Notes under the pieces: model-generated
What the model was told of the DNA's origin: nothing
Databases searched by the model: none
Seen by the model: the letters and a program-made list of their open reading frames with translations, nothing else
Position numbers and translations under genes: made by a program
Source: Tubulanus polymorphus
Lineage: Eukaryota > Nemertea > Palaeonemertea > Tubulaniformes > Tubulanidae
Assembly (NCBI RefSeq): GCF_964204645.1
Contig: NC_134036.1
Coordinates: 3,956,001-4,016,000, forward strand
Length of the DNA stretch: 60,000 nt
Reading direction: 5' to 3'
Shown: one piece after another, positions 193-60,000 of the stretch
Position numbering within the stretch: position 1 is the first letter of the stretch
Layout: each line of letters starts with the position of its first letter

Positions 193-3100
193 TCATTTTC
201 TTCTTTTATTCTTTGCTCGTATGGATTTCATATCGATAGTCAGTATGGTGTAAAGAAGGGGATTGAGGGACGAGTTGATCGGCAAGAAAAGAACCGCCAG
301 CCAAGCCGCCACCTGATTCGGTATTTTTACCCCGAATACGGCGCAAAACTGGACGATAATTAACGGCAACCAGCAAAATAAATTACAAAGATTGATCACC
401 AAACTCCTACGTGCCAGAATCAGTTCTGTAGGGTCGATTCTCCCAGAGCCAGACCTGCTTCCAGATACGAGTCTGTACATTTGCGCATATGTCCCCATTA
501 TTGTAGCAAGTATGACAGAGTTAAACACGGCAAAAATAGCGAATGAATATTGCCAGGCGTTGACATCAATGGTGATTAAATTCATAGGTAAACAAACACC
601 GGTAGTGCCGTAGAAATTATCTCCAAAGTAAGGGTAAGGCGCTAGAGGCAGCAATGCAATGCCACTCAAAACAATCCAACATGTACAGCAAATAATGGAC
701 ACAAATCTTTGAGATTTCAGGTTTCCAGAAAATGGATTAACGATATTTGAATATCTGTGGCGCGTCATGATTAATAGAAACGTCAATGACCCTTCACAAG
801 AGATTGACACAACGACCCCTGCAAGATGACAAAATACACTTCCCGTCCAAGATTCGGAATTAAGGAAATAGAAACCTTTGAAGATGTAATCTGCCCCGGC
901 GATCAGGAATAGATAAACCGACATCATAAAATCGCAGACAGCTACATTGATGATGAGGATATCCGAGGATGGATTGGATTTATCAGAAGAAAATCGAATC
1001 GCTTGAACGCGAAGAGAAATGACTATTCCGTTAGCGAAAAAGCTGAACGAAGCGATCACCCAAATGACGGTTCTGAGGACCGTGTTACCCATCAGGTCTG
1101 AACAAGAGGAGAACGGGTCGGGTTTTGGAAAACATTCATCGACATTGGGTACCATGCAGCAAAACTTGTAAGCATCTGATCTCAGGGAGACTAATGATGT
1201 CAAATTGTCGAAAACGTTTCTGTCGACGGAAACGACTTTCGAGTTTTCGGACAAATCAAGGATTTCAAGCGTCGTCAGCCCGGAAAATGCGTAAAGCGAA
1301 ATACGATCGATTCTGTTAGCGCTGATGTTTAAAGACAGTAAAGCAGAAAGACCCGCAAACGAGTATTCATAAAGCGACAGCATTGAAAGTCCGTGAAGGT
1401 CGAGAGATTGGAGAGACCTCAAACCTTGGAAACTGCCTTCTTCTAAATAAGTCAGTGGATTTCTTGTGATGAACAGTTCTTTCAAACTATACAAACCGGC
1501 GAACGTGTTTGCGGATAATGACGTAATGGTGTTATGGGTAAGGTCTAATGTATATAGATTATGTAGGTTTGAGAATGAGTTCGGTAAAATGTGAGACAAT
1601 TCGTTGGAGGAGAGGTTGAGCATGCGAAGATAGACGTATGGGGAAAATGTTGACGGGTCCAAGATAATTTGATTTTTCGACAAAATTAAGACTCGAGTTG
1701 ATGTAGAAAAGAGACCACTTATATTTGTTAAACGAACATTGTAGCATTCGATCGAATGACCTTGGCACTGACAGCCTCTAGAGCACGTGGCACTGCAGAA
1801 AGCCTCATCATCAGTTGTATGTTTACAATTTACGACACCATTACAAACTTCGGATTGTGGGATACATCGATTTTCCTGGCCACATTTAAACATTCCCGGA
1901 CATGAAAATGTCTCGCAGTTTTCTTCGTCTTCTGAATTAGGACAATCTGATTGACCATCGCACACCTGGCTGATCGGTATACAGTACGATGCTGGACATT
2001 TGACAGTGCCAGCTGGACATTCAAATTCTTCACATCTCAATACGTGCTCAAGATTTCTACAAACTGGGTAACCATTCAGCAATCTCTCTAGAATACACCT
2101 GTGACGTCTTAAATAACAATGAGGAGAATTGAAAGAACATCTTTGTTCATCAGATTCTGTGCATAGAGTTGTGAAGTTAGTCGTACATTGGTTTTCATTA
2201 TCGCAATGAACGGTTGGATTTACCGTAATATTAGTAGCTGCAACTATTTCATCTTCTTCAAGGCTACCACTACAATCCACGACACCATCCTGATACAACT
2301 GAGAACTGATACAGTCTCCACTGTTACACAGGAACCCCTGACACGGTTCAGTGGTGCATCCCATTTCATCGGAGTCGTCTTTACAATTAGTGACTGCATT
2401 ACATCTGTTCGACCTACTAATACATTGACCATTTTCACAGCGAAATTGTTCAGACAAACACGGGGGATGAAAACACGAGTTCTCATCGGAACCATCCACG
2501 CAATCCTGTATGAAATCACAGAATCCACTTATTGATATGACTTGACCATCGTAGCATCTGAAATGACCGTGTAAATTGTTAACCGAACAATCGAGTTCAT
2601 CTTCACCGTGTTGACAGTCGTGTCTGGTATCACATACGCGATGGTCGCTGATACATCTTCGATCGTTACATTCAAACTGCCACGATTTACAACCGCTTAT
2701 AGAAGCTAACTCTTCGCTAGTTACGTTGCATGAACACAAAACAGAATGTGCTTTATCTGTTCTATTTTCCCAGGGAATCAATAACCAATTAACCGATTTA
2801 TTGTATGTTATTTCATCTCTGGTAACAACTGGTTTCAGTGTCCTCCATTGATTGTTAGAACCCTTAGTAAGAATAGCGCCATATTGGTGCTGATAACGAA
2901 ACCTTCCAACCAAATTTTCGACATCTGTCGCCACCGATATCTCACCTATATCACCGCAGATGCCACGACACATTTCTCTCGCGCTTCCAAAATCTAAACT
3001 TCGGTTTTCGTTCCAATTTGTCAGTATTTGAAGACATCGTCCGGCTATACCTACCCAACCTCGTGTACAGGTTGCGTTGAACATATTGTTATCAACCTTA

Positions 3101-6100
3101 TCCCGATTCCCAGTCGGAGACGTTTCGTTATCCGTCTTATTGCTATCTTTCCCAGTTTTATCGATGTTGATTCTGTCCGTTTCGCACATGAAAGTCGTGT
3201 GAACCTCGTCGATTTTGCAGGGGAATCGAACCCAGTTCGCCGAACCTCGCGGATTATTCAGTATCATCGCTGTACACGGCATATTGACGTCATTTATCGG
3301 TTGTTTCCTTACAGCAGATATCAAACCTTGAATAACTTCTGGTATCGTTTCGTTGCTACTCGGTGTCCGGTACCACTCTGTGTAGCTCATCGGTTTTCCA
3401 TCGGTCCACGTATAACGACCAGTTGTCAGCTGAGAAAATAGAATAAAATATTGTATCAGTCATATAAAAAACCCAAACAACGCTCAATTACCTTCCACCT
3501 GCTTCGCTCCCGGAAAGTGCGTTGGGTTTTAAGGGACACAATATCAGATGAAATCTACCAATCGAATGATAACGGGGTAAATCGGTATTCTAAGATTTAA
3601 AAAATACACGTAAAAATGCCACGTAAAAATTAATGAATAACGTCCGAAAAGCGATAGTTCGTTCATAGCACCCCAACTGGTCCTCTTTTCAAAAAAGATA
3701 TAAATTTCATCATTATTTTGAAAAATAATTGAATTCCATGATCTAATTCAACTGCAGATTGTCAATACACTCAAAACACGCTCCCACCTCCACTTCTGAA
3801 TATATTTCGTCATAATATTGACCTCCACTCCCACTGACTAAAAGACTAAAAACTAAACTTTGCGCAAGCTGCTTTACACGAATCCAAATTATACAGCAAA
3901 AATCTTTATTAGCCCAGATGCCTTGTATCTGGTGAGTTAATCATTATTTTCTCCGTTTATCAACACCAGCCTGAATTAACTATCTTTCTTATTTAAAGAC
4001 AAAACTTTTTTGAAATACTTGTAACTATTCGTTTCCGTATTAGTTAAACCTGGTATGTGTTATTATATTTTCAAATTCTATACTCATCACCTAATTTATT
4101 ATCGTTATCTCGATGTCGTTATCAATGTTGTCATTATAATAATCGTGGGGGCTTGCACTAGAACCCCCGTATTAAGTAATCAATTAAAAACTCTTATTGA
4201 TTGTTCATTTCCTTATACGAGAAATATTTCGTAGCTTTTCTCTATATTCTCTAATATTCAATAGATTTAATGCACCTGTAATTTCAAACCGATCATTATT
4301 ATGAGCGCTTTTCTAGAAAATGCCATCTTCATCAGAGGATTTACAGCGAATAACGTTTTGATAGCCATCATCTCCTGTTGTGAGTTGATACTGAGTAGAT
4401 GTCCCGCGTACTTCTGTCTACAGTACAATTCAGCTTTCTCCCAATTCAGACGTACTTTTCTGATGAATTTCACGCAGGAAAATCCCGAATCTAAAAGCCC
4501 TGCTGATTCGCAGACATTGCCGCGTTGTTTCGGCATTAGATTCTGTTCTAAGACGTATTGTACGCGAAATCTGGGCATTCTGTTTTTCACCTCGATCCAC
4601 AGCGATCTTTCCTGCAGACTATAGAATGTAACTCCCGGTACACCGTACATTTCGCATAGTTTATCCTCGTGACGGGCGTTACTACTGTCTTTGCCATATA
4701 TGGCATTGTGGCTGATCTCCTGCACGAATACAACCGCTTCTGTTTTGTATCGCGATTCTTTGATGCACGGCACTTCTTCCATATCTTTGATAACGAAACG
4801 GTAATACTGAATTCGCGTACTGTTCAGCGTGAACCCGACGTTGTATTTCAAGACGACGTTGGAACTGCCGGCCGTTCCCGGGTAGTTCGGCGACTGCACG
4901 ATCCCGCAATCCACTTCACCTCGCTTCATCGTGTCGATGTGATCGCTGTGCTTTCTCAAGCTTTGGCAGGTGCGCTGCAATTCAACAATGTAGGCGAATC
5001 TCCAGAACAAATCGGCCTTGTTGATTTTGACCGTGTACTTGAAGAGGACACTGCTGCTGCCACTGTTGTTGCTGGTGTTGAGACGCTGGCTAGTGAGCGG
5101 CATGGCGCGTTTACATGTATGGGTAGGGGACATATGATCGGGCACGCACGAGCCGATTTCGTATTCGTACGGCGTCAATATGTAAATACTACGTGGCGCA
5201 ACCTGTCGTTTTTCGGGCATAATCCTGAAACAGCGCGACGTCACCGTAACCCGGCGCTCTCCTTGTCGCAGAGTGTAGCCGTCGCAGTCAGATGGACGTA
5301 ACATCAATTTCGCTTTCCTCCGATCGTAAACCAACCTCTTGCCCTGACAATTGTATGTGTAGCCAACTACGATAACCGGGCCGCCCGAGGTAATCAGACT
5401 GACGACGCTGCGTCGATAACCCGACGAATTGGGGCAATACGGGCCGTATCGTCTAGCCGTGAAATTACCACCGTCGTATATGTAAAATCCGACGTTTTCG
5501 CAATCAACCGATAACACCCCTAGTTCGAGACTCTGTTCAGTTATTTGGACTTTCCAGGTGAATTCGTACGCGTTTACGTTATATTTCAACGTCCTAGTTG
5601 GAAATGGAAGCATCATGTAATATGCCAATGGCGCTGAAGCAAGATAGCCGCGTATCTGAAATAAATTCGAAGGAATTAATGAATTCAGTGGCAGTATAAT
5701 TAAGATATGGTCGACCCCTGATATACCGCCAACATCGGTAATCTAAAATTTCAGCGGTATATTGTTAATTTTGACTACTTTTATGACAAAAAACACAAAG
5801 CACAGAATATACAGCACTGGAAAACCCTGGCTCTACGTGGGGATATTCGGTTTAACATCATTAATACGAAATCATAGAAATTTGAAATGTGATACGGAAT
5901 CATTTAGTTGAGTATTTCGTATTATAACAACTGACTCTAAAGTTGTAAAAGAGGTCGGAACATAATCTATTCGATCATTCAATTATTCCGTCAGCTCCTG
6001 CCACAACAACAAACACATTTGTGTTAGTAAACATCAATCGAGACAAAAATCAGTATTCCCGCACTTACCGAAGGCTTATGAATGCGAAACTCTGATAATG

Positions 6101-7283
6101 AAAGCAATTTCATTCTGAATTCTATTCTTACATTCATATTTGTGATGTTCGGTCTGGTAAGAACGCACAGTATGACGAGAAATCCTTCAGATTTGAGACT
6201 CAGTGATTTCAGGTAGTTGTAACCGAGTAGAATATCAGTTCCTACAACGCGTAACCCTTCTTGTTTATAAACACCGATGACGTCATCGGATGTGACGAGA
6301 TCACGTGTCCACTTGAAGACGACATACTGTAACACCTGCACTGTGATAGACCAGCAGTGTAAGTCTTTTGATCGAGTTATTACGTGTAAACTGTTGTCAT
6401 CTGGAATGAGCACTCCCGACTCGTTATTATAGATCTGAATCAACGGATTAGAGACGTTCCAATCCGATATTCTGTACATCTGGATTAAAAGCTCAGTCGT
6501 TGTCCTGCGTTGATCCGACACGAAAATTGTGGCTTTTTTCGTTTTGGTATAAAACGATGACGGCTGCTGTCCGCTTTGAACACCTATAAGCGCTATCGGT
6601 TCACTGCTGATGTTCCAGCCATCGTAGATTCGAAAACTCGCCGCTGGATCGACACCGGCACCAGGGTATAGTATCAGGTCCAGATCTACGAATGTGAAAT
6701 TCATCGCCAAACCATACGGGATGTCGGTCCATTCGATGAACAACTGACATCGGAAATTAAGGAACATTGAGAATTTGTATCCGGTCGATGTTTTTAACTT
6801 ATTCACTTTAAAAAACGATCTCCCGCAGCTGTGAGTGATTCTCAATTGACTTCTTTCGTAACGATATATAATATAAACCCGACTACCTCGAGCACCATCG
6901 ACGTTACTTCTAAACATCAACGAGAGCGAATCGTTACGAACGATGTCGTATTTTCCGTTACCGCAAATGGTCTTCCCGTCGACGAATAGGTAGTTATCAT
7001 TGCAGAATATTGACAGTTCGATATCGTAGTACGTTTCGACGTGAAAAATTCCCGGTAAAGAGCTGTTGACGAACCAACGACATTCAACACCGCGCGTTAA
7101 CGAAGGGTAATTCGGTGAAACGATGTAACCGGACGTTGAATCTAGCGGGTACCACGTGTTGTTACAAGACGAACTTACCGTCACAGACGATTCCTCGATA
7201 GAGTCTGCGCGATCAGCGAGCGCGATGCGAACTCGACAGACGATCAGTGTCGTTATGAACAGCGCTCTTAGTCGCTGCTCCAT
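193..7283 (-). CDS. Copy A: CUB/C-type lectin/LDLa/LRR GPCR (type C LGR, GRL101-like)
   Basis: Three exons on the minus strand: 7283-6069, 5655-4276 and 3429-193, joined in phase 0 (donors GTAAGT and GTGCAT; acceptors TTTCAG and CTCAG), giving 1,943 residues. The start is the ATG of MEQRLRAL; an ATG four codons upstream is possible, but copy D has lost it. Layout: signal peptide 1-23; CUB at about 40-150 (SPNYP motif); two CUB-like regions to 400; a CUB-like region at 410-530; another CUB near 655-770; C-type lectin domain about 785-947 (WTDG, split by intron 2); second lectin-like domain 986-1097; six LDLa modules 1112-1410; LRR cap 1414-1427; about seven LRRs 1440-1625; Cys-rich hinge; seven helices 1648-1928. 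CWLP (1884-1887) and NPLLY (1921-1925) are intact, but HRY replaces DRY (1756-1758). LDLa plus LRR plus rhodopsin core defines type C LGRs (GRL101, relaxin receptors). A cell-surface receptor recognising glycan or protein ligand is inferred; the ligand is unknown. Confidence 0.9.
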
Positions 7284-7401
7284 ACGGAATAACATAAACA
7301 CGTTGATGAAAATTTAGAATTCTAAAATCAGTCCAATCGAAGAATCCATTGCTCTGCTGGAGTCATGAATACTTCAACTACTCGCTTGCTTCATCTCAAA
7401 T

Positions 7402-7429
7402 GATTTCCTCACTATATCGACGACGCCCG
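7402..7429. promoter_or_regulatory. Conserved 28-bp block upstream of copy A
   Basis: The block GATTTCCTCACTATATCGAC plus GACGCCCG lies 119 bp upstream of the copy A start. It recurs without change 119 bp upstream of copy B (18991-19018) and 188 bp upstream of copy D (38980-39007), although sequence around the D copy is otherwise largely different. A core promoter or 5' UTR role is inferred from conservation and position only. Confidence 0.45.
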
Positions 7430-11894: not shown

Positions 11895-14800
11895 TCATTT
11901 TCTTCTTTTATTCTTTGCTCGTATGGATTTCATATCGATAGTCAGTATGGTGTAAAGAAGGGGATTGAGGGACGAGTTGATCGGTAAGAAAAGAACCGCC
12001 AGCCAAGCCGCCACCTGATTCGGTATTTCTACCCGAAATACCGTGCAAAATTGAACGGTTATTAACGGCAGCCAGCAAAATGAATTGCAAAGATTTATCA
12101 CCAAACTCCTACGTGCCAATATTAATTCTGTAGGGTCAATTCTACCAGAGCCAGACCTGCTTCCAGATACGAGTCTGTACATTTGCGCATAAGTCGACAT
12201 TATTGTAACAAGTATGACAGAGTTGAACACGGCAAAAATTACGAATGAATATTGCCAGGCGTTGACCTCGATTGTAATTAAATTCATAGGTAAACAAACT
12301 CCTGTACTGCCATAGAAGTTGTCTCCGAAATAAGATGACTGTGAAAGAGGTATCATAGAAATTGTACCTATGGATAACCAACATACGCCACAAATAATGG
12401 ACACATATTTCGGAGATGTAATCGGGCTTCCAGAAAATGGATTAACGATATTTGAAAATCTGTGTCGCGTTAGAATAAGCAGAAAAGACAACGAGCCTTC
12501 ACAAGAAATCGTCACCACAATTCCAGCGAAACTGCACAATGAACTGTCCGTCCAACTTTCCGAATAAAGAAAATAGACTCCTTCATAGAGGTAATCCGCT
12601 CCCGCGATCAAAAACAAATAAACCGACATCAGAAAATCACAAGCTGCGATGTTGATGATTAGGATGTCAGAGGATGTGTTACGCTTTTCGGAGGACGATA
12701 GTCGAATTGATCGAAGACGAAATAAAACGACAACACTGTTGGCGAGGAAACTTAATGTGGCGATGACCCAAATGATAGCTCTGAGGACTGTGTTGCCCAT
12801 CAGATCAGAACAGGAGGAAAATTGATCAGCTTCTGGAAGGCACTGATCAACATTTGGTGCCATGCAGCAAAACTTGTATGCGTTTGATGCGAGAAAAGCC
12901 AGAGATGTCAGATTATTGAAAACGCCTTTTCCAACAGAAATAACTTTGGAATTGTTGGTTATATCAAGAAGTCTAAGTGACTGCAATCCAGAAAATGCAT
13001 ATATAGATATATCACGGATTCTGTTACCGCTGACATTCAGTGACTGTAGTGCGACCAAACCCTTGAAAACATTTTCTGCAAGGACCGATAGAGATAGTCC
13101 ATAGAGATTGAGAACTCGAAGCGCCTTCATACCTAAGAAACTGCCTTCTACCAAATAGCTCAATGGATTGCCAGTAATGAATAACTGTTCTAAACTATGC
13201 AAACCGGTGAACGTATTTTTAGATAAAGATGTTATGTTATTACATGTAAGGTCTAATGTGTGTAGATTATGAAGGTTGGAAAACGAAGCTGATAATATGT
13301 GAGACAATTCATTGAATGAGATGTTTAGCATACGAAGATATACGAAAGAAGATAAGGTTGACTCGCTCAAACGAATTCTATTGTCCGACAAAATCAAAAC
13401 TCGAGTTGATGCGGAGAAGAGACCAGTGATATTTGTTAAACCAGTTTTTCTACAATCGATCGAATGACCTTGACACCTGCAATCTGTAGGACACGTGACT
13501 TCACAGAAAGCCTCGTCATCAGTTGTGTGTTTACAATTTACGAAACCATCACAAACTTCAGATTGTGGAATACACCGATTTTCCTGACCACATTTAAACA
13601 TTCCCGGACAAGAAAATATCTCGCAGTTTTGTTCATCTTCTGAATTAGGACAATCTGATTGACCGTCGCATACCTGTCTGATCGGTATACAGTAAGACGC
13701 TGGACATTTCACAGTACCAGCTGGACATTCAAATTCTTCACATTTCAAAATGTGCTCAAGATTTCTACAAACTGGGAAACCATTTGTCATTCTATCTAGA
13801 ATGCATCTGTGATGTCTTAAATAACAATGTGGAGAATTGAAAGAACATCTCTGTTCATCAGATTTTATGCAGAAATTTGTGAAGTTAGTCATACAGTAGT
13901 TTTCATTGTCGCAGTGAACAGTAGGATTCACTGTAACATTAGAAGTTGTTACTAATTCATCTTCCTCAAGGCTTCCACTACAATCCACGACACCATCCTG
14001 ATACAACTGAGAACTGATACAGTCTCCACTGTTACACATGAACCCTTGACACAGTTCAGTAGTGCACCCATTTTCATCGGAGCCGTCTTTACAATTAAGG
14101 ACTCCATCACATCTGTTTGATTTACCGACACATTGACCATTTCGACAGCGAAATTGTTCGGCCAAACACGGTGGATGAAAACACGAGTCCTCATCAGAAC
14201 TATCCACACAATCCTGTATGAAATCACAGAATCCACTAATTGATATAACCTGACCATCATAGCATTGAAACTGACTGTGCAGATTGATATCCGTACAATT
14301 GAGTTCATCTTCACCGTGTTGACAGTCGTGTCTGGTATCACATACGCGATGGTCGCTGATACATCTTCGATCGTTACATTCAAACTGCCACGATTTACAA
14401 CCGCTTATAGAAGCTAACTCTTCGCCAGTTACATTGTAGGAACACAGAACAGAATGCGCTGTATCTGTTTGGTTTTCCCAGGGCATCAATAACCAATTAA
14501 CTGATTTATTATACGTTATTTCATCTCTGGTAACAAATGGTTTTATTGTCCTCCATTGATTGCTAGCATCCTTAGTTAGAATAGCGCCATATTGGTGCTG
14601 ATACCGAAACCTTCCAACCAAATTTTCGACTTCTGTCGCCACCGATATCTCACCTATATCACCGCTGGTGCCACGACACATTTCTCTCGCGCTTCCAAAA
14701 TCTAAACTTCGGTTTTCGTTCCAATTTGTCAGTATTTGAAGACATCGTCCGGCTATACCTACCCAACCTCGTGTACAGGTTGCGTTAAACATATTGTTAT

Positions 14801-17800: not shown

Positions 17801-18872
17801 GGTAGTTGTAACCGAGTAAAATATCAGTTCCAACAAAGCGTAACCCTTCTTGTTTATATACACCGATAACGTCATCGGATGTGACGAGATCATGTGTCCA
17901 GTTGAAGACGACGTACTGTAACACCTGCACTGTGATAGACCAGCAGTGTAAGTGTTTTGATCGAGTTATTACGTGTAAACTGTTGTCATCTGGAATGAGC
18001 ACTCCCGACTCGTTATTAGAAATCTGAACCAACGGATTAAAGACGTTCCAATCTGATATTCTGTAAATCTGGATTAAAAGCTCAGTCGTTGTTTTGCGTT
18101 GATCCGACACGAAAATTGTGGCTTTATTGGTTTTGGTATAAAACGATGACGGCTGTTGTCCGCGTTGTTCACCTAAAAGTGCTATCGGTTCACTGCTGGT
18201 GTTCCAGCCATCGTAGATTCGAAAAGTCGCCGCTGGATCAACATCAGGACCAGGTTTCACTTGTAGGTCTAAATCTACGAATGTGAAATTCATCGCCAAA
18301 CCATACGGGATGTTGATCCATTCGATGAACAACTGACATCGGGAACTAAGGAACATTGAGAATTTGTATCCGGTCGATGTGTTCAACTTATTCATTCTAA
18401 AACTCCATCTCCCGCAACTGTGAGTGATTCTCAATTGGCTTCTTTCGTAACGATATATGATATAAACCCGACTACCTCGCGCACCATCGACGTTACTTCT
18501 AAACATCAACAAGATTGAGTTGTTACGAACGATGTCGTATTTTCCGTTACCGCATATGGTCTTCCCGTCGACGAATAGGTAGTTATCACTGCAGAATATT
18601 GACAGTTCCATATCGTAGTACGCTTCGACGTGAAAAGTTCCCGGTAAAGAACTGTTTATGAACCAACGACATTCAACACCGCGCGTTAACGAAGGGTAAT
18701 TCGGTGAAACGATGTAACCGGACGTAGAATCTAACGGGTACCACGTGTTGTTACAAGACGAACTTACCGTCACAGACGATTCCTCGATAGAGTCTGCGCG
18801 ATTAGCGAGCGCGATGCGAACTTGACAGACGATCAGTGTCGTTATGAACAGCGCTCTCAGTCGCTGCTCCAT
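11895..18872 (-). CDS. Copy B: CUB/C-type lectin/LDLa/LRR GPCR
   Basis: Exons 18872-17658, 17244-15865 and 15143-11895 in phase 0 give 1,947 residues with the same domain order as copy A. Exons 1 and 2 and both flanking introns are nearly identical to copy A. Intron 1 is 413 bp in both; intron 2 is 721 bp here against 846 bp in A. From the middle of the second lectin-like domain onward the sequence leaves A and groups with copy D, for example at TM1 (TVLRAIIWVIA) and in the LRRs. The motif after TM3 reads HRF instead of DRY; CWLP and NPLLY are kept. An AATAAA lies only about 20 bases after the stop codon (11870-11875 on this strand). No frameshift or internal stop is present, so the copy looks functional. 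Confidence 0.9.
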
Positions 18873-22496: not shown

Positions 22497-25400
22497 TCAT
22501 TTTCTTCTTTTATTCTTTGCTCGTATGGATTTCATATCGATCGTCAGTATGGTGTAAAGAAGGGGATTGAGGGACGAGTTGATCGGCAAGAAAAGAACCG
22601 CCAGCCAAGCCGCCACCTGATTCGGTATTTGTACCCCGAATACGGCGCAAAACTGGACGATAATTAACGGCAACCAGCAAAATAAATTACAAAGATTGAT
22701 CACCAAACTCCTACGTGCCAAAATCAGTTCGGTAGGGTCGATTCTCCCAGAGCCAGACCTGCTTCCGGATACGAGTCTGTACATTTGCGCATATGTCCCC
22801 ATTATTGTAGCAAGTATGACAGAGTTAAACACGGCAAAAATAGCGAATGAATATTGCCAGGCGTTGACATCAATGGTGATTAAATTCATAGGTAAACAAA
22901 CACCGGTAGTGCCGTAGAAATTATCTCCAAAGTAAGGGACAGGCACTAGAGGTAGCAATGCAATGCCACTCAAAACAATCCAACATGTACAGCAAATAAT
23001 GGACACAAATCTTTGAGATTTCAGGTTTCCAGAAAATGGATTAACGATATTTGAATATCTGTGGCGCGTCATGATTAATAGAAACGTCAATGAGCCTTCA
23101 CAAGAGATTGACACAACGACCCCTGCAAGATGACAAAATACACTTCCCGTCCAAGATTCGGAATTAAGGAAATAGACACCTTTGAAGATGTAATCTGCCC
23201 CGGCGATCAGGAACAGATAAACCGACATCATAAAATCGCAGACAGCTACATTGATGATGAGGATGTCCGAGGATGGATTGGATTTATCCGAGGAAAATCG
23301 AATCGCTTGAACGCGAAGAGAAATGACTATTCCGTTGGCGAAAAAGCTGAACGAAGCGATCACCCAAATGACGGTTCTAAGGACCGTGTTACCCATCAGG
23401 TCTGAACAAGAGGAGAACGGGTCGGGTTCTGGAAAACATTCATCGACATTGGGTACCATGCAGCAAAACTTGTAAGCATCTGATCTCAGGGAAACTAATG
23501 ATGTCAAATTGTCGAAAACGTTTCTGTCGACGGAAACGACTTTCGAGTTTTCGGACAAATCAAGGATTTCAAGCGTCGTCAGCCCGGAAAATGCGTAAAG
23601 CGAAATACGATCGATTCTGTTAGCGCTGATGTTTAAAGACAGTAAAGCAGAAAGACCCGCAAACGAGTATTCATAAAGCGTCAGCATTGAAAGTCCGTGA
23701 AGGTCGAGAGATTGGAGTGACCTCAAACCTTGGAAACTGCCTTCTTCTAAATAAGTCAGTGGATTTCTTGTGATGAACAGTTCTTTCAAACTATACAAAC
23801 CGGCGAACGTGTTTGCGGATAATGACGTAATGGTGTTATGGGTAAGGTCTAATGTATATAGATTATGCAGGCTTGAGAATGAGTTCGGAAAGATGTGAGA
23901 CAATTCGTTGGAGGAGAGATTGAGCATGCGAAGATAGACGTATGGGGAAAATGTTGACGGGTCCAAGATAATTTGATTTTTCGACAAAATTAAGACTCGA
24001 GTTGATGAAGAAAAGAGACCACTTATATTTGTTAAACGAGCATTGTAGCATTCGATCGAATGACCTTGGCACTGACAGCCTCTAGAGCACGTGACACTGC
24101 AGAAAGCCTCATCATCAGTTGTATGTTTACAATTTACGACACCATTACAAACTTCGGATTGTGGGATACATCGATTTTCCTGGCCACATTTAAACATTCC
24201 CGGACATGAAAATGTCTCGCAGTTTTCTTCGTCTTCTGAATTAGGACAATCTGATTGACCATCGCATACCTGGCTGATTGGTATACAGTACGATGCTGGA
24301 CATTTTACAGTCCCAGCTGGACATTCAAATTCTTCACATCTCAATACGTGCTCAAGATTTCTACAAACTGGGTAACCATTCAGCAATCTCTCTAGAATAC
24401 ACCTGTGACGTCTTAAATAACAATGAGGAGAATTGAAAGAACATCTTTGTTCATCAGATTCTGTGCAGAGATTTGTGAAGTTAGTCGTACATTGGTTTTC
24501 ATTATCGCAATGAACGGTAGGATTTACTGTAATATTAGTAGCTGCAACTATTTCATCTTCTTCAAGGCTACCACTACAATCCACGACACCATCCTGATAA
24601 AACTGAGAACTGATACAGTCTCCACTGTTACACAGGAACCCCTGACACACTTCAGCGGTGCATCCCATTTCATCGGAGCCGTCTTTACAATTAGTGACTC
24701 CATTACATCTGTCCGACCTACTAATACATTGACCATTTTCACAGCGAGATTGTTCAGACAAACACGGGGGATGAAAACACGAGTTCTCATCGGAACCATC
24801 CACGCAATCCTGGACGAAATCACAGAAACCACTTATTGATATGACCTGACCATCGTAGCATCTGAAATGACCGTGTAAATTGTTCTCCGAACAATCGAGT
24901 TCATCTTCACCGTGTAGGCAGTCGTGTCTGGTATCACATACGCGGTGGTTGCTGATACATCTTCGATCGTTACATTTAAACTGCCACGATTTACAACCGC
25001 TTATAGAAGCCAACTCTTCGCTAGTTACGTTGCGTGAACACAAAACAGAATGCGCTGTATCTGTTTGATTTTCCCAGGGAATCAATAACCAATTAACCAA
25101 TTTATTGTATGTTATTTCATCCCTGGTAACAACTGGTTCCAGTGTCCTCCATTGATTGTTAGAATTCTTAGTAAGAATAGCGCCATATTGGTGCTGATAA
25201 CGAAACCTACCAACCAAATTTTCGACTTCTGTCGCCACCGATATCTCACCTATATCACCGGTGATGCCACGACACATTTCTCTCGCGCTTCCAATATCTA
25301 AACTTCGGTTTTCGTTCCAATTTGTCAGTATTTGAAGACATCGTCCCGCTATACCTACCCAACCTTTTGTACAGGTTGCGTTGAAGATATTGTTATCAAC

Positions 25401-28400
25401 CTTATCCCGATTCCCAGTCAGAGAAGTATCGTTATCCGTTTGATTGCTATATTTTCCAGTTGCATTTTTGTCGACGTTGATTCTCTCCGTTTCGCACATG
25501 AAAGTCGTGTGAACCTCGTCGATTCCGCAGGGGAATCGAACCCAGTTCGCTGAACCTCGTGGATTGTTTAGTATCATCGCTGTACATGGCATATTGACGT
25601 CTTGTATCGGTTGTTTTCTCAGGGGAGATATCAATCCACCGATTACTCCGGGTATCGTTTCGTTGCTACTCGGCGGCCGGTACCACTCTGTGTAGCTCAT
25701 CGGTTTTCCATCGGTCCACGTGTAACGACCAGTTGTCAACTGAGAAAAAAGAATAAAACATTGTATTATCGGTTATATGAAAAACCCACTCAAGTAATAA
25801 AGAAATAAAGTACGATTTAGCTAAAGTTGGTTCGACGTTTCGACAATATTCTGATTTTCATGGATACTAAACAGCAAGATCTTTTCGAAATTATTTTCCT
25901 TTTTAGTGTAGGATTTTTTATCGTCAATCACGGGCTTTATCAGTAACTATTCTACAGGTTCTCTGACATTTCTACCGATTTCACCATATTTCCATTGACA
26001 TTTTCTTTTTCATGACATTATCAGGCCCATATCGATACGTCTCATCCGCTACATATTAAGGGTTAGGCTTAAACGCTATTTAAATATTCTAATATTGATT
26101 TGCATTGGTAACTAACTACCAATATATAATTCAATTGAATTGGATTGAATAATAATACCTCAACTATAGGGACAAAAGAGGAACTATTGATTATTGAGAT
26201 CTTCTTTATATCGTGGGTCATCATGATTTTCTTTTTTGTGTTTAATCATCATATTTCAATTAATCGAATGCACCTGTAATTTTAATCCGATCATTATTAT
26301 GAGTGCTTTTCTCGAAAATGCCATCAACATCAGAGGATTTACAGCGAACAGCGTCTTGATGGCCAACATCTCCTGTTGTGAGTTGATACTGAGTAGATGT
26401 CCCGCGTACTTCTGTCTACAGTACAATTCAGCATTCTCCCAATTCAGACGTACTTTTCTGATGAATTTCACGCAGGAAAATCCCGAATCTAAAAGCCCTG
26501 CTGATTCGCAGACTCTGTCGCGTTGTTTCGGCATTAGATTCTGTTCAAAGACGTATTGTATGCGGAATCTGGGCATTCTGTTTTTCACCTCGAGCCACAG
26601 CGATCCTTCCTTCAGACTATAGAATGTGACTCCCGGTACACCGTACGTTTCGCATAGTTTTTTCTCGTGACGGGCGTTACTCTGGTCTCTACCCTTTCTG
26701 TCGGCGTAGAACACTTCCTGCACGAATACGACCGCTTCCGTTTTATGTTGCGATTCTTTGATGCAAGGCGCTTCTTCCATATCTTTAATAACGAATCGGT
26801 AATACTGAATTCGCGTGCTGTTCAGCCTGAACCCGACGTTGTATTTCAAGACGACGTTGGATCTGCCGGCCGTTCCCGGGTAGTTCGGCGACTGCACGAT
26901 TCCACAATCGACCACACTTCGCTTCGTCCAGTCGATGTGATCGTTATGCTTTTTCAATCTTTGGCAGGTGCGCCGCAATTCGACGATGTAGGCGAACCTC
27001 CAGAACGCGTCGGCCTTATTGATTTTCACGGTGTACATAAGGCTGTTGCTGTTGTTGAGCCGCTGGCTACTGAGCGGCATGGCTCGTAAACATGACTTGG
27101 TAGAGAACATATGATCGGGCACGCACGAGCCGATTTCGTATTCGTACGGCGTCAATATGTAAATACTACGTGGCGCAACCCGTCGTTTTTCGGGCATAAT
27201 CCTGAAACAGCGCGACGTCACCGTAACCCGGCGCTCTCCTTGTCGCAGAGTGTAGCCGTCGCAGTCAGATGGACGTAACTTAAAGATACCTTCACCCAAG
27301 CGCTTGCCTGGACAGTTGTATGTGTAGCCTAATACGATAACCGGGCCGCCCGAGGTAATCAGACTGACGACGCTGCGTCGATAACCCGACGAACTGGGGC
27401 AATACGGGCCGTATCGTCGAGCCGTGAAATTACCACCGTCGTATATGTAAAATCCGGCATTTTCGCAATTCACGGACAGCACCGTTAGCTTGAGACTTTG
27501 TTCGTATATCTGGACTTTCCACGTGAATTCGTACAAATTGATACGGTACTTCAACGTCCTCGTTGGAAATGGGAGCAGCGTGTAGGACGCCAATGACGTC
27601 GTAGCCAACTTGCCGTGTATCTGAAATATATTTAGATGAATTAATGAAGTCAGAATGAATACCAATACAGTCAACATGTACACCGCCTACATACTGGTGA
27701 TTTAGGAATTCGGTGGAGTCGAATAGAGTATGGTGGTATGTCAGGGTTAATTTCGACTATTTCCAAAAATATACAGAAGCTCTTTGTGTAAACCAAAATC
27801 TAACGTTAGAAGTCCAGACGAGCATCAGGCGGTTGTAGGTTGGCCTTACGACTTTCTACGAATCGACCTACCATCGCCTTTACCCCAAAATAATTGACGT
27901 AGGAATGGAATATTATTGGTTGTTGGAATAAGGACACGATCGAACAAATATAAAACTTACAACAGGCTTGATAATGCGGAGCTCTGACTTCGTGAGCGAT
28001 TTCGTTCTGAAGTCTATTTCTACCATTACATTTGTCATATTCTTCGTAAGAACGCACAGTATGACTATAAAACCGTCAGAGTTGACACTCAGTGATTCCA
28101 AGTAGTTATAACCGAGTAAAATATCAGTTCCTACAACGCGTAGCCCTTCTTGTTTATATACACCAATGACGTCATCGGATGTGCTGAGACCACGTGTCCA
28201 GTTGAAGACGACGTACTGTAACACCTGCACAGTGATAGACCAGCAGTGTAAGTGTTTTGATCGAGTTATTACGTGTAAACTGTTGACATCGGGAATGAGC
28301 ACTCCCGACTCGTTATTAGAGATCTGTATCAACGGATTCGAGACGTTCCAATCGGATATTCTGTACATCTGGATTAAAAGCTCAGTCGTTGTTTTGAATT

Positions 28401-29172
28401 GATCCGACACGAAAATGATGGCTTTGTTAGTTTTGGTATAAAACGATGACGGCTGCTGTCCGCTCTGTATACCTATAAGCGCTATCGGTTCACTGCTGAT
28501 GTTCCAGCTGTCGTAAATGCGAAAACTCGTCGCTGGGTCGACACCGGCACCAGGGTATAGTTTCAGGTCCAAATCTACGAATGTGAAATTCATCGCCAAA
28601 CCATCCGGGATTTCGATCCATTCGATGAACAACTGACATCGGAAATTAAGGAACATTGAGAATTTGTATCCGGTCGATGTTTTTAACTTATTCACTTTAA
28701 AACTCCATCTCCCGCAACTATGAGTGATTCTCAATTGGCTTCTTTCGTAACGATACACGATATAAACCCGACTACCTCGCGCACCATCGACGTTACTCCT
28801 AAACATCATCGAGATCGAATCGTTACGAACGATGTCGTATTTTCCGTTACCGCAGAAGGTTCTCCCGTCAATGAATAGGTAGTTGTCACTGCAGAAAATT
28901 GACGGCTCGATATCGTAATACGTTTCGACGTGAAAAGTTCCCGGTAAAGAGCTGTTGACGAACCAATGACATTCAACACCGCGCGATAACGAAGGGTAAT
29001 TCGGTGAAACGATGTAACCGGACGTAGAATCTAGCGGGTACCACGTGTTGTTACAAGACGAACTAACCGTCACAGACGATTCCTCGATAGAGTCTGCGCG
29101 ATCAGCGCGCGCGACGCGAACTTGAAAGACGATCAGCGACGCTATAAACAGCGCTCTCAGTCGCTGCTCCAT
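22497..29172 (-). CDS. Copy C: CUB/C-type lectin/LDLa/LRR GPCR
   Basis: Exons 29172-27961, 27620-26274 and 25739-22497 in phase 0 give 1,933 residues. Exon 2 is 11 codons shorter than in A and B, through losses in the basic stretch around the YDRRKAK position and in the Ser/Asn-rich linker. Exon 3 from the LDLa modules to the stop, and the 3' flank, are almost identical to copy A. The start of exon 3 differs (PGVIGGLISPLRK against PEVIQGLISAVRK). The post-TM3 motif is HRY. Upstream of the start codon the sequence is unrelated to the spacers upstream of A and B, so this copy may use a different promoter. An in-frame ATG further upstream (29211) would extend the N-terminus by 13 residues; the start at MEQRLRAL is preferred because it puts the signal peptide at the terminus and is shared by the copies. 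Confidence 0.9.
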
Positions 29173-29552: not shown

Positions 29553-29941
29553 CAGTAACATAGGAAATAAACCCACAGGTCGTTAAGAGAAGCTATGTGT
29601 CAGAACTTGATAAACAGAATTAGCATAAAAACACCATAGGGTTCCACCGTAGGAACCACAAAATTAATAAGGTTTAGTTAAGAAGGTTTAGATACCTACG
29701 TAACTATGGTTTAGTTGAAGGCTTATGTCAATAAGTTGATAAACCGGCAATTAGACGAAAAACCGCGAGAGAATCCGACGTTTTGACCCTAATCTATGAG
29801 CCATTTCCAAATCTAATCTATTGCATATAACTGTATAACAACATGGATTATAGCGTCAAGGTAACTAAGTGATCCCTTGACTAAGGAGTTTATTTTTGGG
29901 TTAAGAGAAACCTACCGTCGGTCACATCTGCTCTTCGCGCG

Positions 29942-31881: not shown

Positions 31882-34800
31882 TTATTTTGGGATACTTGGC
31901 TTTGTAAGATGTTGGCGGCGTTTATTTCTTGCTCGAATGGATTTCATATCGATAGTCAGTATTGTGTAGAGAAGTGGATTTAGGGACGAGTTGATCGGTA
32001 AGAAAAGAACCGCCAGCCAAGCCGCCACCTGATTCGGTATTTCTACCCGAAATACCGTGCAAAACTGAACGGTAATTAACGGCAGCCAGCAAAAGAGATT
32101 ACAAAGATTTATCACCAAACTTCTGCGTGCCAAAATAAGTTCAGTAGGGTCGATTCTACCCGAACCAGACCTGCTTCCAGATACGAGTCTGTACATCTGG
32201 ACATAAGTCGTCATTATTGTAGAAAGTATGACAGAGTTAAAAATGGCAAAAATGGTGAATGAATATTGCCAGGCGTTGACATCAATTGATATTAAATTCA
32301 TAGGTAAACAAACTCCAGTTGTGCCGTAGAAGTTGTTTCCAAAATAAGATAACTGTGACACCGGTATTATAGCTATGGTACCCATGGATAACCAACATAC
32401 GCCACAAATAATCGACACATATCTCGGAGATGTAGTCGGGCTTCCTGAAAATGGATTAACAATATTTGAGAATCTATTACGAGTAAGAATAAGCAGAAAA
32501 GATAACGAGCCTTCGCAAGAAATTGTCACTATAACTCCAGCGAAACTACACAATGCACTATTCGTCCAACTTTCCGAATAAAGAAAATAAACTCCTTTGA
32601 AAACGTAATCTGCTCCCGCGATTAAGAACAAATAAATCGACATCAGAAAATCACAAACTGCGATATTGATGATGAGGATGTCAGAGGATGTGCTATTGGT
32701 CTCAGAGGATGAAAGTCGAATAGCCAAAATACGGAATAAAATGACAATACTGTTCGCAAACAAACTGAACGCAGCGATGACCCAGATGATAGCTCTGAGA
32801 ACTGTGTTACCCATCAAATCAGAACAGGAGGAAAATTGATCAGCTTTTGGAAGACACTGGTCAACATTCGGAGCCATGCAGCAAAATTTGTAAGCGCTTG
32901 AAGCGAGAAAAGCCAAAGATGTCAGATTATTGAAAACGCCTTTTCCAACAGAAATAACTTCGGAATTGTTGGTTATGTCGAGGATTCTGAGTGACCTCAA
33001 TCCCGAGAATGTGTACTTTGACATATGTTGGATTCTGTTACCGCTGATATTCAATGTCTGTAATGCGGTCAAACCTTTAAATACATTTCTCGCAAAGGTC
33101 GATAAATGAAGCCCATAAAGATTGAGAACTCGAAGCGATTTCAAACCTAGAAAACTGCCCTCTATTAAATATCTCAGCGGATTGCCAGTAATGAATAACT
33201 GTTCTAAACTATACAAACCGGTGAACGTATTTGCGGATAAGAATGTTATGTTGTTATATGTAAGATCTAATGTATGCAGATTATGCAGGTTTGAGAAGGA
33301 GTTCGGTAAAATATAAGACAATTCATTGAAGGAGAGGTTAAGCATACGAAGATATACAAAAGAAGATAATATTGACTCGCTTATAAGGATTCTGTTTTTT
33401 GATAATATTAAAAGTCGAGTCGATGCCGAGAAGAGAGTAGTTATATCTGTTAGACCAGCATTTTCACAATCGATCGAACGGCCTTGACATTTACAGCCTC
33501 TAGGACACGTGACATTACAGAAAGCCTCATCATCAGTTGTATGTTTACAATTTACGACACCATCACAAACTTCAGATTGTGGAATACATCGATTTTCCTG
33601 ACCACATTTAAACATTCCCGGACATGAAAATGTCTCGCAGTTTTGCTCATCTTCTGATATAGGACAATCTGATTGACCATCGCACACCTGTCTGATCGGT
33701 ATACAGTACGATGCTGGACATTTTACAGTACCAGCTGGACATTCAAATTCTTCACATCTTGATACGTGTTCAAGATTTCTACAAACTGGGAAACCATTTA
33801 TCATTCTTTCCAGAATACATCTGTGGCGTCTTGGATAACAGTGAGGAGAATCGAAGGAACATCTTTGTGCATCATATTCTGTGCAGAGTTTCGTACAGTG
33901 GTTATCATTAGTGCACTGAACCTCAGGATTTACTGTCACATTGGTAGTTGCTACTATTTCATCTTCTTCAAGGATTCCACTGCAATCCACAACTCCATCC
34001 TGATACAACTGAGAACTGATACAGTCCCCACTATTGCACAGGAACCCATGACATAGTTCAGCAGTGCATCCCATTTCATCGGAGCCGTCCTTGCAATCAG
34101 TGGCTCCATCACACCTGTTTGATTTACCGACACATTGACCATTTTTGCAGCGAAATTGTTCGGACAAACACGGTGGATGAAAACACGAGTTCTCATCGGA
34201 ACCATCCACACAATCCTGTATGAAGTCACAGAAACCACTTATTGATATGAACTGACCATCATCGCATTGAAACTGACTGTGTAAATTGATATCCGTACAA
34301 TTGAGTTCATCTTCACCGTGTTGACATTCGTGTCTGGTATCACATACGTGATGGTCGCTGATACATCTGTGATCGTTACATTCAAACTGCCACGATTTAC
34401 AACCGCTTATAGAAGCTAATTCTTCATCAGTTACATTATATGAACACAAAACAGAATGCGCTGTATCTGTCACATTATCAAACTTTTTCATCTTCCATTG
34501 AACTGATTGAATATGAGTAATTTCATCTCTAGTGATTATTGGTATCAAAAGTATTAATCTGTATCGATCATCAATGGCCAGTATAGCACCATACCGGTGC
34601 TCATAGTGTAATGTTTGAATTATCCTCATATATTCTCTTCCATACGACAATGTAATACCTATTTTACCGTTTATTTTATTACACATTTCCGTTGCTTGTT
34701 CGACGTCCAAATTGTGATATTTATTCCAGTCAGTCAGTATTTGATAACATCGCCCTGCTATATCTACCCAACCCCGAATACAGGTTGAATCAGTGACGTC

Positions 34801-37800
34801 TAGCTTTGGAAATGAATAATTTTCAGCGGTTACTATTGTTTCATTGTCGTATCTCGTCAGATTGCCATCTTGCTTTGTTTCATTTCGATCCGATTCGCAA
34901 ACAAACGTTGTATGAACCTCCTCGATTAGACATGGGAATCGAACCCAGTTCGCCGAACCTCGTGGATTATTCAGTATCATCGCCGTACACGGCACATTTA
35001 CGTCATTTATCGGTTGTTTTCTTAGAGGAGATATCAAGCCTCGAATAACTTCTGGTATCGTTTCGTTATTTGTAGGTTTATACCACTCCGTGTAGCTCAA
35101 TGGTTTCCCGTCAGTCCACGAGTAATGAGCTGCTCTAGGCTGTAAATCAAATTGAAGATAACTTTATTTCATGCACGACAGAAAGTACCCGAGACCATTT
35201 TTGGACGATCTCGCTTGAAAACTCATATTCAACTGTTCATAGATTGTTTAATGTAATCTTTTGTTTACCTCATATGTTAGCCCAATCATGACTATGAGAG
35301 CAGTTCGCGTGTATCCCTCCTTGAGCAGTTCCCGGGCGAACAGACTTTTGATGGCCATCATTTCCTGTTGTGAGTTGATACTGAGTAGATGTCCCGCGTA
35401 CTTCTGCCTACAATACAATTCAGCATTCTCCCAATTCAGAATTTTATCTCCGATGTATTTTACGCACGAAATTCCAGAATCTAGAAATCCTGATTTACAG
35501 ACATTTCCAACCCGTTTGACGAGTGATTTCTCTTCGACCGTATATTGTATTTGAAAAGTGGGGATGAAATTTTTCACCTCAAACCAGAGCTGCATGATAT
35601 CCAGACTATACAATACAACCCCCGGTACTGACACTCTACCGCATATTTTAGTTACGTGTTGAACTTGCTTACGTCGTGTAGTTCCGTAGAAGTTCTGTAC
35701 ACGTTGCACCAACAAAACGGGATCGTTGTCCATCCCGGATGACTTCTCGCACGACGTCGCTTCGATATGTTTCAACATGAATCTATAAAATTGGACTCGA
35801 TCGAGTTTGCGTCTGAATTCGAATGTATAGCGTTTAGGTTCTCGTTCGCTTTCCGCTTTGCCGGGGTAGTTCGTCGACTGCACGCGACCGCATTCCGGAG
35901 TCAACGCGGACAGGTCGGTGTTCTTGTCGATTGTTTTCAGTCGCATGCATTTACGTCGCAGTTTGACGACGATGAGCTTTTTCCAGAAGTCGTACGCACT
36001 TTTTAGGTTGACCGTGTGCAAGACAACTCCATCGAGATGTCGAACGTTGAATCGCCACATGTGCCGACACGTCGATGTCGGAAAGTACTGATTGACGACG
36101 CACGAATCGACTTCGTATTCGTGCTCGGACCAAATGTAGATATCTTTTAAAGGGAGGCGCCGGTTTTCGGGCGTTATCAGAACGCAGTCGGACGTCGCGT
36201 TGACGTGTTGTTCTCCTTTCTTTAGTAGTCGACTGTCGCAATCTGTCGGACGAAACACGTACCAGCCTGCATTAAAACCCACGCTATGGTCGTATAAGTA
36301 GATGACAACCATTACCAGTCCACCCGATGTAATCAGACTGACGACGTTACGGTCGTATCTCCTTAAACGAGGACAATACGGACCGTAGCGTCTAGCCGTG
36401 AAATTACCACCGTCGAATATGTAAAATCCAGCTCGCTCGCAGTTCTCTGATAAAACTGTTAGTTCCATATTTTCTTCATAAATGTGAACGGCTGACTTGA
36501 ATTCGTATGAATAAAAGCGATAAAACCTACCCGAAGGAAAAGGAGTCAAGCGCCGCTGTCTATCAGTAAGCTATAAGATAAAAAAAAAACAAAAATTTTG
36601 ATTTTGATTTTGATTTATCGTTGGGCTCAAGGTATGATCTGTGGGAAGAAAAATATGGCATTCTTTCAGAAAAGCCTATTATTCATCATTTACCCGTCAA
36701 ACTTTCATATTTTATTCGTTAAACCTTCGTTTTACCCGTTTAGAACTTTTATTTTACATATGTGTAAACTTAACTTTAGATTTACCCGTAAATTCTTCAT
36801 ACATTGCTCGTCAAAACTGATCTCAGTGTACTCAAAAACTAAATCGCTTATACAAATATACAATCTAATCAAATATTTTGTTTTCTTATTTTAACAGAAT
36901 ATCAAATACTTTGACAGAATTGATTATCGATATGAATTATGAATGTTTTAGTTTTGACGGCTGAAGCTTTGTCGGGTAAAATAAAAATGTTGGCAAGGCA
37001 AGTTTGATCTTTCACACGACATGATAGAAAACCCACTATGTACCGATAAAACGATCTCTATTGAGAGTTCGAAACATCATTTCAAATTTCTAATCAAATA
37101 AACTCTTGGTTGTAAGACTTTTTAATATGAACACAGTGGTACTTTTAGATATATCATCAATTTTTTTTCACGTTTGAGTATGGTTATTGTACTCGGTTGA
37201 TGTTTTATTTTGACAGTTTACCTATGCCTTAGAAAGAAGGTCTAGTAGTAATTAGTATTGTTGTATATGGCGTAACAGAGATCCTAGCGGTAGACACTAC
37301 GATGAACGTAAGCGTAAAGGAAAACGTGAATGAACGACCAATAATCATAGGGGATTCCATGTAGTTTTGAAGTGATAAATGTGTATTTTTTTCTGTAGAT
37401 TATCTAAACTAATCAAATGCATGTATATTTTAGAACCGGTGTCGCCAAAAAAAGCCATCGGGAAAAACGTATATCCACCACATCTAAACCTTTCATATAT
37501 GTAATTGGTAAATACGTTTAATTATTGTACCTAGTCACCCTTCTTAGTTTTTTGTTCTTAGTTTTGATAACAACACGTACCTGTTTATGGAAGATACGGA
37601 AATCAGACTTCGAAAATGATTTCACTCTGCGCACAATCCTTACATTCGATCCTGTGATGTTCGGTCTCGTAAGAACGCACAGTATGACGAGAAAGCCGTC
37701 AGATTTAACACTCAGTGATTGCAGGTAGTTGTGACCGAGTAAAATATCAGTTCCTACAACACGTAACCCTTCTAGTTTAAATACACCGATGACGTCACCG

Positions 37801-38792
37801 GATGTGCTGAGATCACGTGTCCAGTTGAAGACGACGTACTGTAACACCTGCACTGTGATAGACCAGCAGTGTAAGTGTTTTGATCGAGTTATTACGTGTA
37901 AACTGTTGACATCGGGAATGAGCACTCCCGACTCGTTATTAGAGATCTGTATCAACGGATTCGAGACGTTCCAATCGGATATTTTGTACATCTGGACTAA
38001 AAGCTGTGTCAGAAATTTCAGTTGACGATATTGCAGTGATATGACGGCTTTGTTTGTTTTAGTATAAAACGATGAAGGTGGATGTCCGGTTTGTTCTCGC
38101 ATAAGAGCTACAGGTTTACTGCTGCTGTTCCATCCGTCGTAAATCTTAACAGTCGCCACCAATGGATCAATCCCAGCATTTAATTGGAAAACTGTTTGAG
38201 TGAAGGTGAGATTCATTGCATAGCCACGAGGCATCCCGATCCTTTCTAGATACAACCGGCAATTTCGTAGACGTGTTATCGAAAATTTGTGTCCCGTATC
38301 TGTTTCTAACCGTCCTAACCTTAGATTATATCTTGAACAGTCGTGAGTGATTCTGAATCGGCTTCGTTCATAACGATATATGATATAAACCCGACTACCT
38401 CGCGCACCATCGACGTTACTTCTAAACATCAACGAGATCGAATCGTTACGGCGGATATCAGGTTTTCCATCACCGCACAATCTGATATCAGACTCTTCGG
38501 CGAGAATGTAGCTGTCCTTGCAGAGTATCGACGGTTCGATGTCGAGGTAAAACCGGACGTGAATAGTTCCCGGTAAAGAACCGTTGGCGAACCAACGACA
38601 TTCAAGACCGCGCGATAACGAAGGGTAATTCGGCGAAACGATGTAACCGGACGTAGAATCTAGCGGGTACCACGTGTTGTTACAAGACGAACTTACCGTC
38701 ACAGACGATTCCTCGATAGAGTCTGCGCGATCGGCGCGCGCGATGCGAACTCGACAGACGATCAGCGACGCTAACAGCGTTCTCAGCTCCAT
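31882..38792 (-). CDS. Copy D: divergent CUB/C-type lectin/LDLa/LRR GPCR
   Basis: Exons 38792-37581, 36570-35269 and 35139-31882 in phase 0 give 1,923 residues. This is the most divergent member. Exon 2 (CUB and linker) and the second lectin-like domain are heavily changed, and intron lengths differ (1,010 bp and 129 bp). It uses donors GTACGT and GTAAAC where the others use GTAAGT and GTGCAT. By contrast the signal peptide and first CUB start, a block in the third CUB-like region, the first-lectin sequence AELYCRQKYAGHLLSINSQQ and the third intracellular loop are nearly unchanged. The post-TM3 motif is NRF, so the acidic residue of DRY is absent here too. The C-terminus is longer (RARNKRRQHLTKPSIPK) than the RAKNKRRK ending of the other copies. 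The upstream ATG seen in A, B and C is GTG here, so translation should begin at MELRTLLA. Confidence 0.88.
35140..35268 (-). other. Short intron 2 of copy D
   Basis: Only 129 bp against 534-846 bp in copies A-C, with donor GTAAAC and acceptor TTACAG. It interrupts the first C-type lectin domain at the same residue (after IGL plus three residues) as in the other copies. Confidence 0.75.
36571..37580 (-). other. Long intron 1 of copy D
   Basis: 1,010 bp against about 340-413 bp in the other copies. AT-rich, with no gene or recognisable repeat seen. Confidence 0.65.

Positions 38793-40968: not shown

Positions 40969-60000
<19,032 letters not shown>

Follow-up and report, generated by a model that had tools for sequence, protein, structure and literature searches.

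A tandem array of chimeric, reshuffled type C LGR genes with CUB- and lectin-like heads in the nemertean Tubulanus polymorphus

Organisation of the array

A 60,000-nucleotide stretch of the genome of the palaeonemertean Tubulanus polymorphus (267.8 Mb in 77 contigs), located at C12:3956001-4016000 and referred to here as the window, carries four genes (A to D) for chimeric receptors on its minus strand between positions 193 and 38792. Each gene consists of three long exons with zero internal stops, and the deduced proteins comprise 1943 (A), 1947 (B), 1933 (C) and 1923 (D) amino acids. Gene models were derived from minus-strand long open frames, which occur in sets of three, and splice sites were assigned by copy-to-copy comparison. 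In 70 kb of flanking sequence two further genes with the splice pattern of A to D were identified to the left of the window: gene E (C12:3945134-3952215, 1941 amino acids) and gene F (C12:3934322-3940971, 1939 amino acids; both pairs of coordinates exclude the stop codon). The array reads F-E-A-B-C-D and comprises at least six intact genes, arranged head to tail on one strand over 60.5 kb and separated by spacers of 2.7-4.6 kb. All introns of the array (12/12) are GT-AG and of phase 0.

An earlier note on this DNA had described four intact tandem copies of a chimeric receptor gene and had seen in them a possible lineage-specific expansion of pattern-recognition or chemosensory receptors. Location, intactness and the four genes within the window were confirmed and a local expansion is borne out by the six tandem genes, but genes E and F rule out that four copies make up the whole array, which is larger than first noted. 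No further matches were found in C12:3906001-3934000 or C12:4016001-4036000. A genome-wide 7tm_1 scan, in which 147 of 2,666 candidates were scored, was uninformative on copy number, as the array was absent from the list. By blastn (1e-10), sequence upstream of the genes was common to F, E, A and B; that of gene C matched no other copy, and that of gene D matched F and E over only ~115 bases. As no upstream match within 2.6 kb was common to all copies, a conserved upstream coding exon was ruled out, within the limit that a diverged exon could escape this comparison.

The core resembles relaxin receptors

Pfam scans were performed on genes A and D. In both, exon 3 contains six LDLa stretches, and LRR_8/LRR_4 matches mark a block of leucine-rich repeats (LRRs; four LRR_8 stretches in each) between the LDLa block and a seven-transmembrane (7TM) core. 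The only 7TM family matched was 7tm_1, apart from a sub-threshold 7tm_4 match in A. Neither 7tm_2 nor GPS was detected at E up to 1 in any of the three exons of A and D, by which an adhesion-type G protein-coupled receptor (GPCR) was ruled out. An NCBIfam scan returned LRR matches only, far below the cut-off.

Among PDB sequences the 7TM core was nearest to the relaxin receptor RXFP1 in both D (147.9 bits, next 81.2) and A (145.8 bits, next 78.7). Since RXFP1 is nearest and glycoprotein-hormone receptors score far lower (81 bits against 148), the array genes are assigned by similarity to the type C leucine-rich repeat-containing GPCRs (LGRs), the group of class A GPCRs typified by relaxin receptors and GRL101, as the earlier note had proposed from the order of LDLa, LRR and seven-helix core. 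A stretch of the form KFCCM...C...SSC, visible in the aligned copies, is a candidate for the cysteine-rich hinge of type C LGRs.

The head contains CUB and lectin-like segments

The region ahead of the LDLa block amounts in gene A to ~1,107 residues, signal peptide included, and is thus longer than the ~970 estimated previously. Its first domain, CUB1, matched Pfam CUB in gene D (E 5.5e-5, 23.9 bits, cut-off 21.4) and scored below the cut-off in gene A, while a four-copy profile matched cubilin (E 1.1e-7). The second, at residues ~150-275 of gene A, is a putative CUB domain suggested by fold matches of a low-confidence model of exon 1 (mean predicted local distance difference test score, pLDDT, 40.9), which was useful for residues 150-275 only. 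Of the several CUB or CUB-like domains noted earlier, CUB1 is supported by sequence and CUB2 by these fold matches; no domain match was obtained for the third segment of exon 1 or for exon 2 up to the lectin-like domain.

Two C-type-lectin-like domains (CTLDs) had likewise been reported. CTLD1 was confirmed by Pfam and by a match to DEC-205, whereas the CTLD2-like segment matched neither Pfam (genes A and D) nor PDB (four-copy profile), and its structure model (mean pLDDT 34.8) was unusable. Internal repeats among the ectodomain segments were not supported, as the four profile-comparison values above 50% probability were built-in overlaps. The earlier interpretation is thus supported in part: the chimeric architecture, the type C LGR plan and an expansion at this locus are retained, whereas the second lectin domain was not confirmed.

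A split lectin domain joins exons 2 and 3

CTLD1 is split by intron 2, its N-terminal half ending exon 2 and its C-terminal half opening exon 3. In gene D the joined domain scored 39.0 bits against Pfam Lectin_C (cut-off 22.6 bits), compared to 23.0 bits for the N-terminal half and no match for the C-terminal half; in gene A it scored 34.5 bits joined and 18.8 bits, below the cut-off, for exon 2 alone. These were the two of the six copies in which the joined domain was scored. With a four-copy (A-D) profile against DEC-205, 61.5 bits were obtained for the joined CTLD1 and 18.7 bits for exon 2 alone. Because the CTLD1 score rises on joining across intron 2, exons 2 and 3 are assigned to one gene. 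An acceptor site was found at the start of exon 2 in all copies, and a signal peptide was seen by eye on exon 1 and not on exon 3.

Each unit might instead hold two genes, one for a secreted CUB/CTLD protein (exons 1 and 2) and one for a shorter LGR (exon 3), a case that the earlier note had itself raised. The exon join is predicted from DNA, and a published paralog model on another chromosome (P0035, LOC141911221, contig C9) is only 689 amino acids long. That model, however, retains a CTLD1 remnant, YYTWTDGKPLSYTEW, ahead of its LDLa modules. As CTLD1 straddles intron 2 with a higher joined score in both scored copies, and exon 3 begins in the middle of a domain and, by eye, without a signal peptide, exons 1 and 2 as a separate gene were rejected, and we consider the two-gene arrangement highly improbable.

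P0035 lacks parts of the LDLa and LRR regions and could represent a further full-length gene whose model is fragmented. It was one of the two matches, among 738 candidates, of a third protein search. The other, P0036, is a 900-amino-acid LDLa-LRR-7TM protein, 32-33% identical to genes A-D, for which no CUB or lectin domain is listed; its sequence begins within an LDLa module, and the N-terminus may be missing. A search with the full-length protein gave 29 matches among 5,997 candidates, in which LRR proteins dominated and no close full-length relative was found, and a 7TM-region search with the full-length query gave 0 matches among 1,589 candidates. None of the six array proteins was among the matches listed in the full-length and third searches.

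Heads and cores have different histories

Synonymous (dS) and nonsynonymous (dN) divergence was computed for 12 segments in 11 of the 15 gene pairs. Between A and B, dS was 0.00-0.13 in three exon-2 segments (0.00 and 0.01 in two of them) and 1.25 in the LRRs. The reverse was observed for A and C (0.17-0.42 in exon-2 segments, 0.03 in the LRRs) and for B and F (0.09-0.25 and 0.03, respectively). Third-position differences between A and B showed divergence from about alignment column 1080 on, across the LDLa block. In approximately unbiased (AU) tests the trees of exons 1-2 and of the LRR-7TM region rejected each other (p 1.3e-7, 68 log units, and p 5.8e-29, 1,197 log units), and exon 2 alone rejected the LRR-7TM tree (p 7.3e-4). 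The dS contrasts and the mutual rejection of the trees indicate that heads and cores differ in history. The LRR-7TM modules fall into two types or more, one in A, C and E and another in B and F, with D closer to the latter, and these are combined with heads that have a history of their own. Unequal recombination or gene conversion has, as judged from these patterns, reshuffled the array and left near-identical heads on different LRR-7TM modules.

An assembly artefact, in which uncollapsed haplotypes would account for some of the six copies, is very unlikely. The dS between E and A is only 0.01-0.08 over LDLa, LRR and 7TM, as an artefact would have it; the copies nevertheless follow one another head to tail on a single strand with the spacers given above, dS is at least 0.25 in some segment for all of the 11 compared pairs except A/E and C/E, with C/E reaching 0.43, and the sole N gap of the window (42400-42599, 200 bases) lies outside the array.

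Whole-gene dN/dS was 0.27-0.35 in all six pairs of window genes, consistent with working genes. In each of these pairs it was higher in the head (0.34-0.45 in exons 1-2) than in the LDLa-LRR-7TM part (0.18-0.24). An excess of dN over dS was found in 11/132 segment-pair cells, six in the signal peptide and five in the first two exon-2 segments; these values involve few changes and are uncorrected, and may reflect relaxed constraint, chance or adaptation. One further cell, beyond the computed set, gave no value.

Proposed function as recognition receptors

The best explanation for the array is that of reshuffled type C LGRs acting as recognition receptors for microbes, parasites or non-self, and it could about equally well prove right or wrong. 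The receptors may plausibly serve in recognition or immunity, with a functional precedent in snails in the GRL101/CTL cluster of a schistosome-resistance locus (PMC12297450). The CUB/CTLD head would capture a ligand, either a protein or a glycoprotein, on the cell surface or close to it, and the ligand or the deformed ectodomain would then engage the LRRs. The membrane-proximal LDLa might in turn activate the 7TM bundle, as abstracts propose for RXFP1, and a G protein would signal, possibly Gs, which the solved complex of RXFP1 contains according to its chain name (7tmw_R). Recognition fits better than a single-hormone receptor because the copies are six and mosaic and their heads evolve faster.

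Hormone reception is the role in which type C LGRs are usually discussed, and the array proteins may bind an insulin-, relaxin- or IGF-like peptide hormone on their LRRs and LDLa modules. The CUB/CTLD head would then be of old origin and have an accessory part in adjusting affinity or localisation, and the array would be the outcome of ordinary neutral duplication and gene conversion. We judge this combination unlikely, and still a serious rival to recognition, which is itself our best-supported guess. It would agree with the proximity of the 7TM core to RXFP1, with purifying selection over the whole genes, with the insulin-like ligand hypothesised for GRL101 (PMC8286064) and with the CUB domains of type C LGRs in Nematostella and Trichoplax (PMC9545775), from which part of the head may be ancient. 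Six mosaic copies, on the other hand, exceed the needs of a single hormone axis, and evolution is faster in the head than in the core in 6/6 window pairs.

Tandem arrays are typical of chemoreceptors, and the proteins could also detect environmental or conspecific cues in sensory epithelia; the ectodomains of small-molecule chemoreceptors are, however, far smaller than those encoded here. A GRL101-like LGR with six LDLa modules is enriched in the sensory tentacles of the crown-of-thorns starfish, where a single gene and no array is reported in the excerpt (PMC6267866). A chemosensory role appears quite improbable.

Several points weigh against recognition. The function is predicted from the gene sequences, and the join of exon 1 to exon 2 from the conservation of splice sites, the open frames and the signal peptide, with no domain split across it. 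The faster head may reflect relaxed constraint, dN/dS being below 1 over the whole genes and in both broad regions. Alignments show a TM3 end without the acidic DRY residue, and G protein coupling is therefore uncertain. EPN/QPD and WND are the calcium/sugar motifs of carbohydrate-binding C-type lectins; EPN/EPS, QPD, WND, WID and WDD were absent from residues 771-1110 in 6/6 proteins, which argues against classical calcium-dependent sugar binding. In the snail locus, finally, the validated and top outlier variants lie in a non-GRL101 Zn-RING-IAP gene inside the cluster (PMC12297450), so that the link between its GPCRs and resistance is mainly positional, and the likeness of cluster and array would be one of domain content, common descent not being implied.

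The exchange between head and core is in our view the most interesting part of the array. The mosaic genes represent naturally occurring chimeras with exchanged heads and signalling cores. Going further than recognition as such, one might envisage a self-reshuffling recognition system in which conversion and unequal crossing-over pair variable CUB/CTLD capture heads with two diverged LRR-7TM signalling modules, so that one locus would keep making new sensing-signalling pairings. Such a system, which we offer as a speculation with rather low expectation, would correspond, in a nemertean, to the parasite-resistance cluster of snails, whether through shared descent or through convergence.

Features of the window and neighbouring sequence

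The features of the array genes within the window are compiled in Table 1.

Table 1. Positions and assigned content of array genes A to D in the window
Feature	Position	Strand	Content and evidence
Gene D exon 1	37581..38792	-	Signal peptide by eye, CUB1, CUB-like 2, third segment; Pfam CUB
Gene D exon 2	35269..36570	-	Segments without domain match, then CTLD1 N-terminal half; Lectin_C 23.0 bits alone
Gene D exon 3	31882..35139	-	CTLD1 C-terminal half, CTLD2-like segment, LDLa, LRR, 7TM, stop; Pfam, RXFP1
Gene C exon 1	27961..29172	-	Gene model and alignment
Gene C exon 2	26274..27620	-	Gene model and alignment
Gene C exon 3	22497..25739	-	Gene model and alignment
Gene B exon 1	17658..18872	-	Gene model and alignment
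Gene B exon 2	15865..17244	-	Gene model and alignment
Gene B exon 3	11895..15143	-	Gene model and alignment
Gene A exon 1	6069..7283	-	Signal peptide by eye, CUB1 ~46-135, CUB-like 2 ~150-275, third segment
Gene A exon 2	4276..5655	-	Segments without domain match, then CTLD1 N-terminal half (4276-4515)
Gene A exon 3, CTLD1 C-terminal half	3181..3429	-	Joined CTLD1 above Lectin_C cut-off
Gene A exon 3, CTLD2-like cysteine-containing segment, unconfirmed	2704..3180	-	No Pfam/PDB match
Gene A LDLa block, 6 stretches	1786..2703	-	Pfam PF00057 E 9.5e-31
Gene A LRR block	1120..1785	-	Pfam PF13855 E 3.7e-34
Gene A class A 7TM core, short basic tail, stop	193..1119	-	Pfam PF00001 E 6.5e-20

Upstream of the array, a non-LTR retrotransposon occupies window positions 49874-54395 (minus strand) with two long open frames, ORF1 (523 amino acids, zinc knuckles and a GDSL-lipase-like domain) and ORF2 (977 amino acids, endonuclease and reverse transcriptase). 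It adjoins an inverted repeat of 498 nt (54553-55050 and 56249-56746, 97% complementary, arms 1,198 nt apart), possibly the ends of another mobile element. On the strand opposite to the array, three fibronectin type III open frames at 44090-47803 are probably exons of one or more genes. A 39/78-nt minisatellite at 48067-48513 contains ~12 copies of the 39-nt unit, with one frame open and encoding a GTGSRVKLNPHNC-like repeat, and an (ATA)n microsatellite of ~53 units lies at 49100-49257. Elsewhere in the genome, two equally scored class A GPCR matches were found ~16 kb apart at C9:11468664-11469431 (minus) and C9:11484889-11485656 (plus), representing either an inverted duplication or an assembly duplicate.

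Comparison with known receptors

The vertebrate relaxin receptors RXFP1 and RXFP2 share with the array the succession of LDLa, LRRs and class A 7TM. RXFP1 (LGR-7) differs in that an LDL domain stands at its beginning, a figure in PMC9545775 showing it without a CUB or lectin head, and its TM3 end differs in the alignment. Lymnaea stagnalis GRL101, as cited in PMC8286064, likewise has many LDLa modules (twelve), six LRRs and a 7TM; it is set apart by description, CUB and CTLD being unmentioned in that excerpt. In a study of nemertean neuropeptide receptors LRR-containing GPCRs were left out (PMC8557429).

CTLDs occur in the ectodomains of placozoan adhesion GPCRs (PMC6321704), and CTLD, CUB and LDLa in those of amphioxus (PMC2246102). 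In contrast to the array, the 7TM of both, as described in these excerpts, is of the secretin/adhesion family and not of the class A LGR type.

The schistosome-resistance region SudRes2 of Biomphalaria sudanica contains 12 GRL101-like genes, 10 of which have LRR, LDL and a C-type-lectin-like domain; its authors describe the N-terminal lectin fold as unique to those genes and report six more such genes elsewhere in the genome (PMC12297450). Both systems consist of clustered paralogous GPCRs, and the content of C-type-lectin-like domain, LDL, LRR and 7TM recurs in the array. They differ in density (12 genes in 440 kb compared to six in 60.5 kb), and CUB is named nowhere in the main text of PMC12297450. 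The array of Tubulanus polymorphus adds, beside the snail cluster, a second spiralian phylum with tandem LGRs that bear a lectin-like head, here in mosaic form. Together, the nemertean array and the snail cluster lead to a testable hypothesis, namely that some relaxin-receptor-like GPCRs became reshuffled recognition receptors.

Extra N-terminal CUB domains are present in Nvec-LGR4 of Nematostella and Tadh-LGR-5 of Trichoplax, which also have a type C-like hinge, LDL, LRR and 7TM (PMC9545775). The excerpt differs from our findings in that it names fibronectin type II, does not mention C-type lectin and describes no array. An LGR combining CUB with C-type-lectin domains was not found in the open-licence literature among the matches listed, mostly titles and abstract openings. 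Within this scope, the earlier view that the CUB and lectin extension falls outside the known plan applies to the combination on one LGR and not to CUB or lectin alone. Since CUB-bearing and lectin-bearing type C LGRs each have precedents, the array is a variant of a known receptor type.

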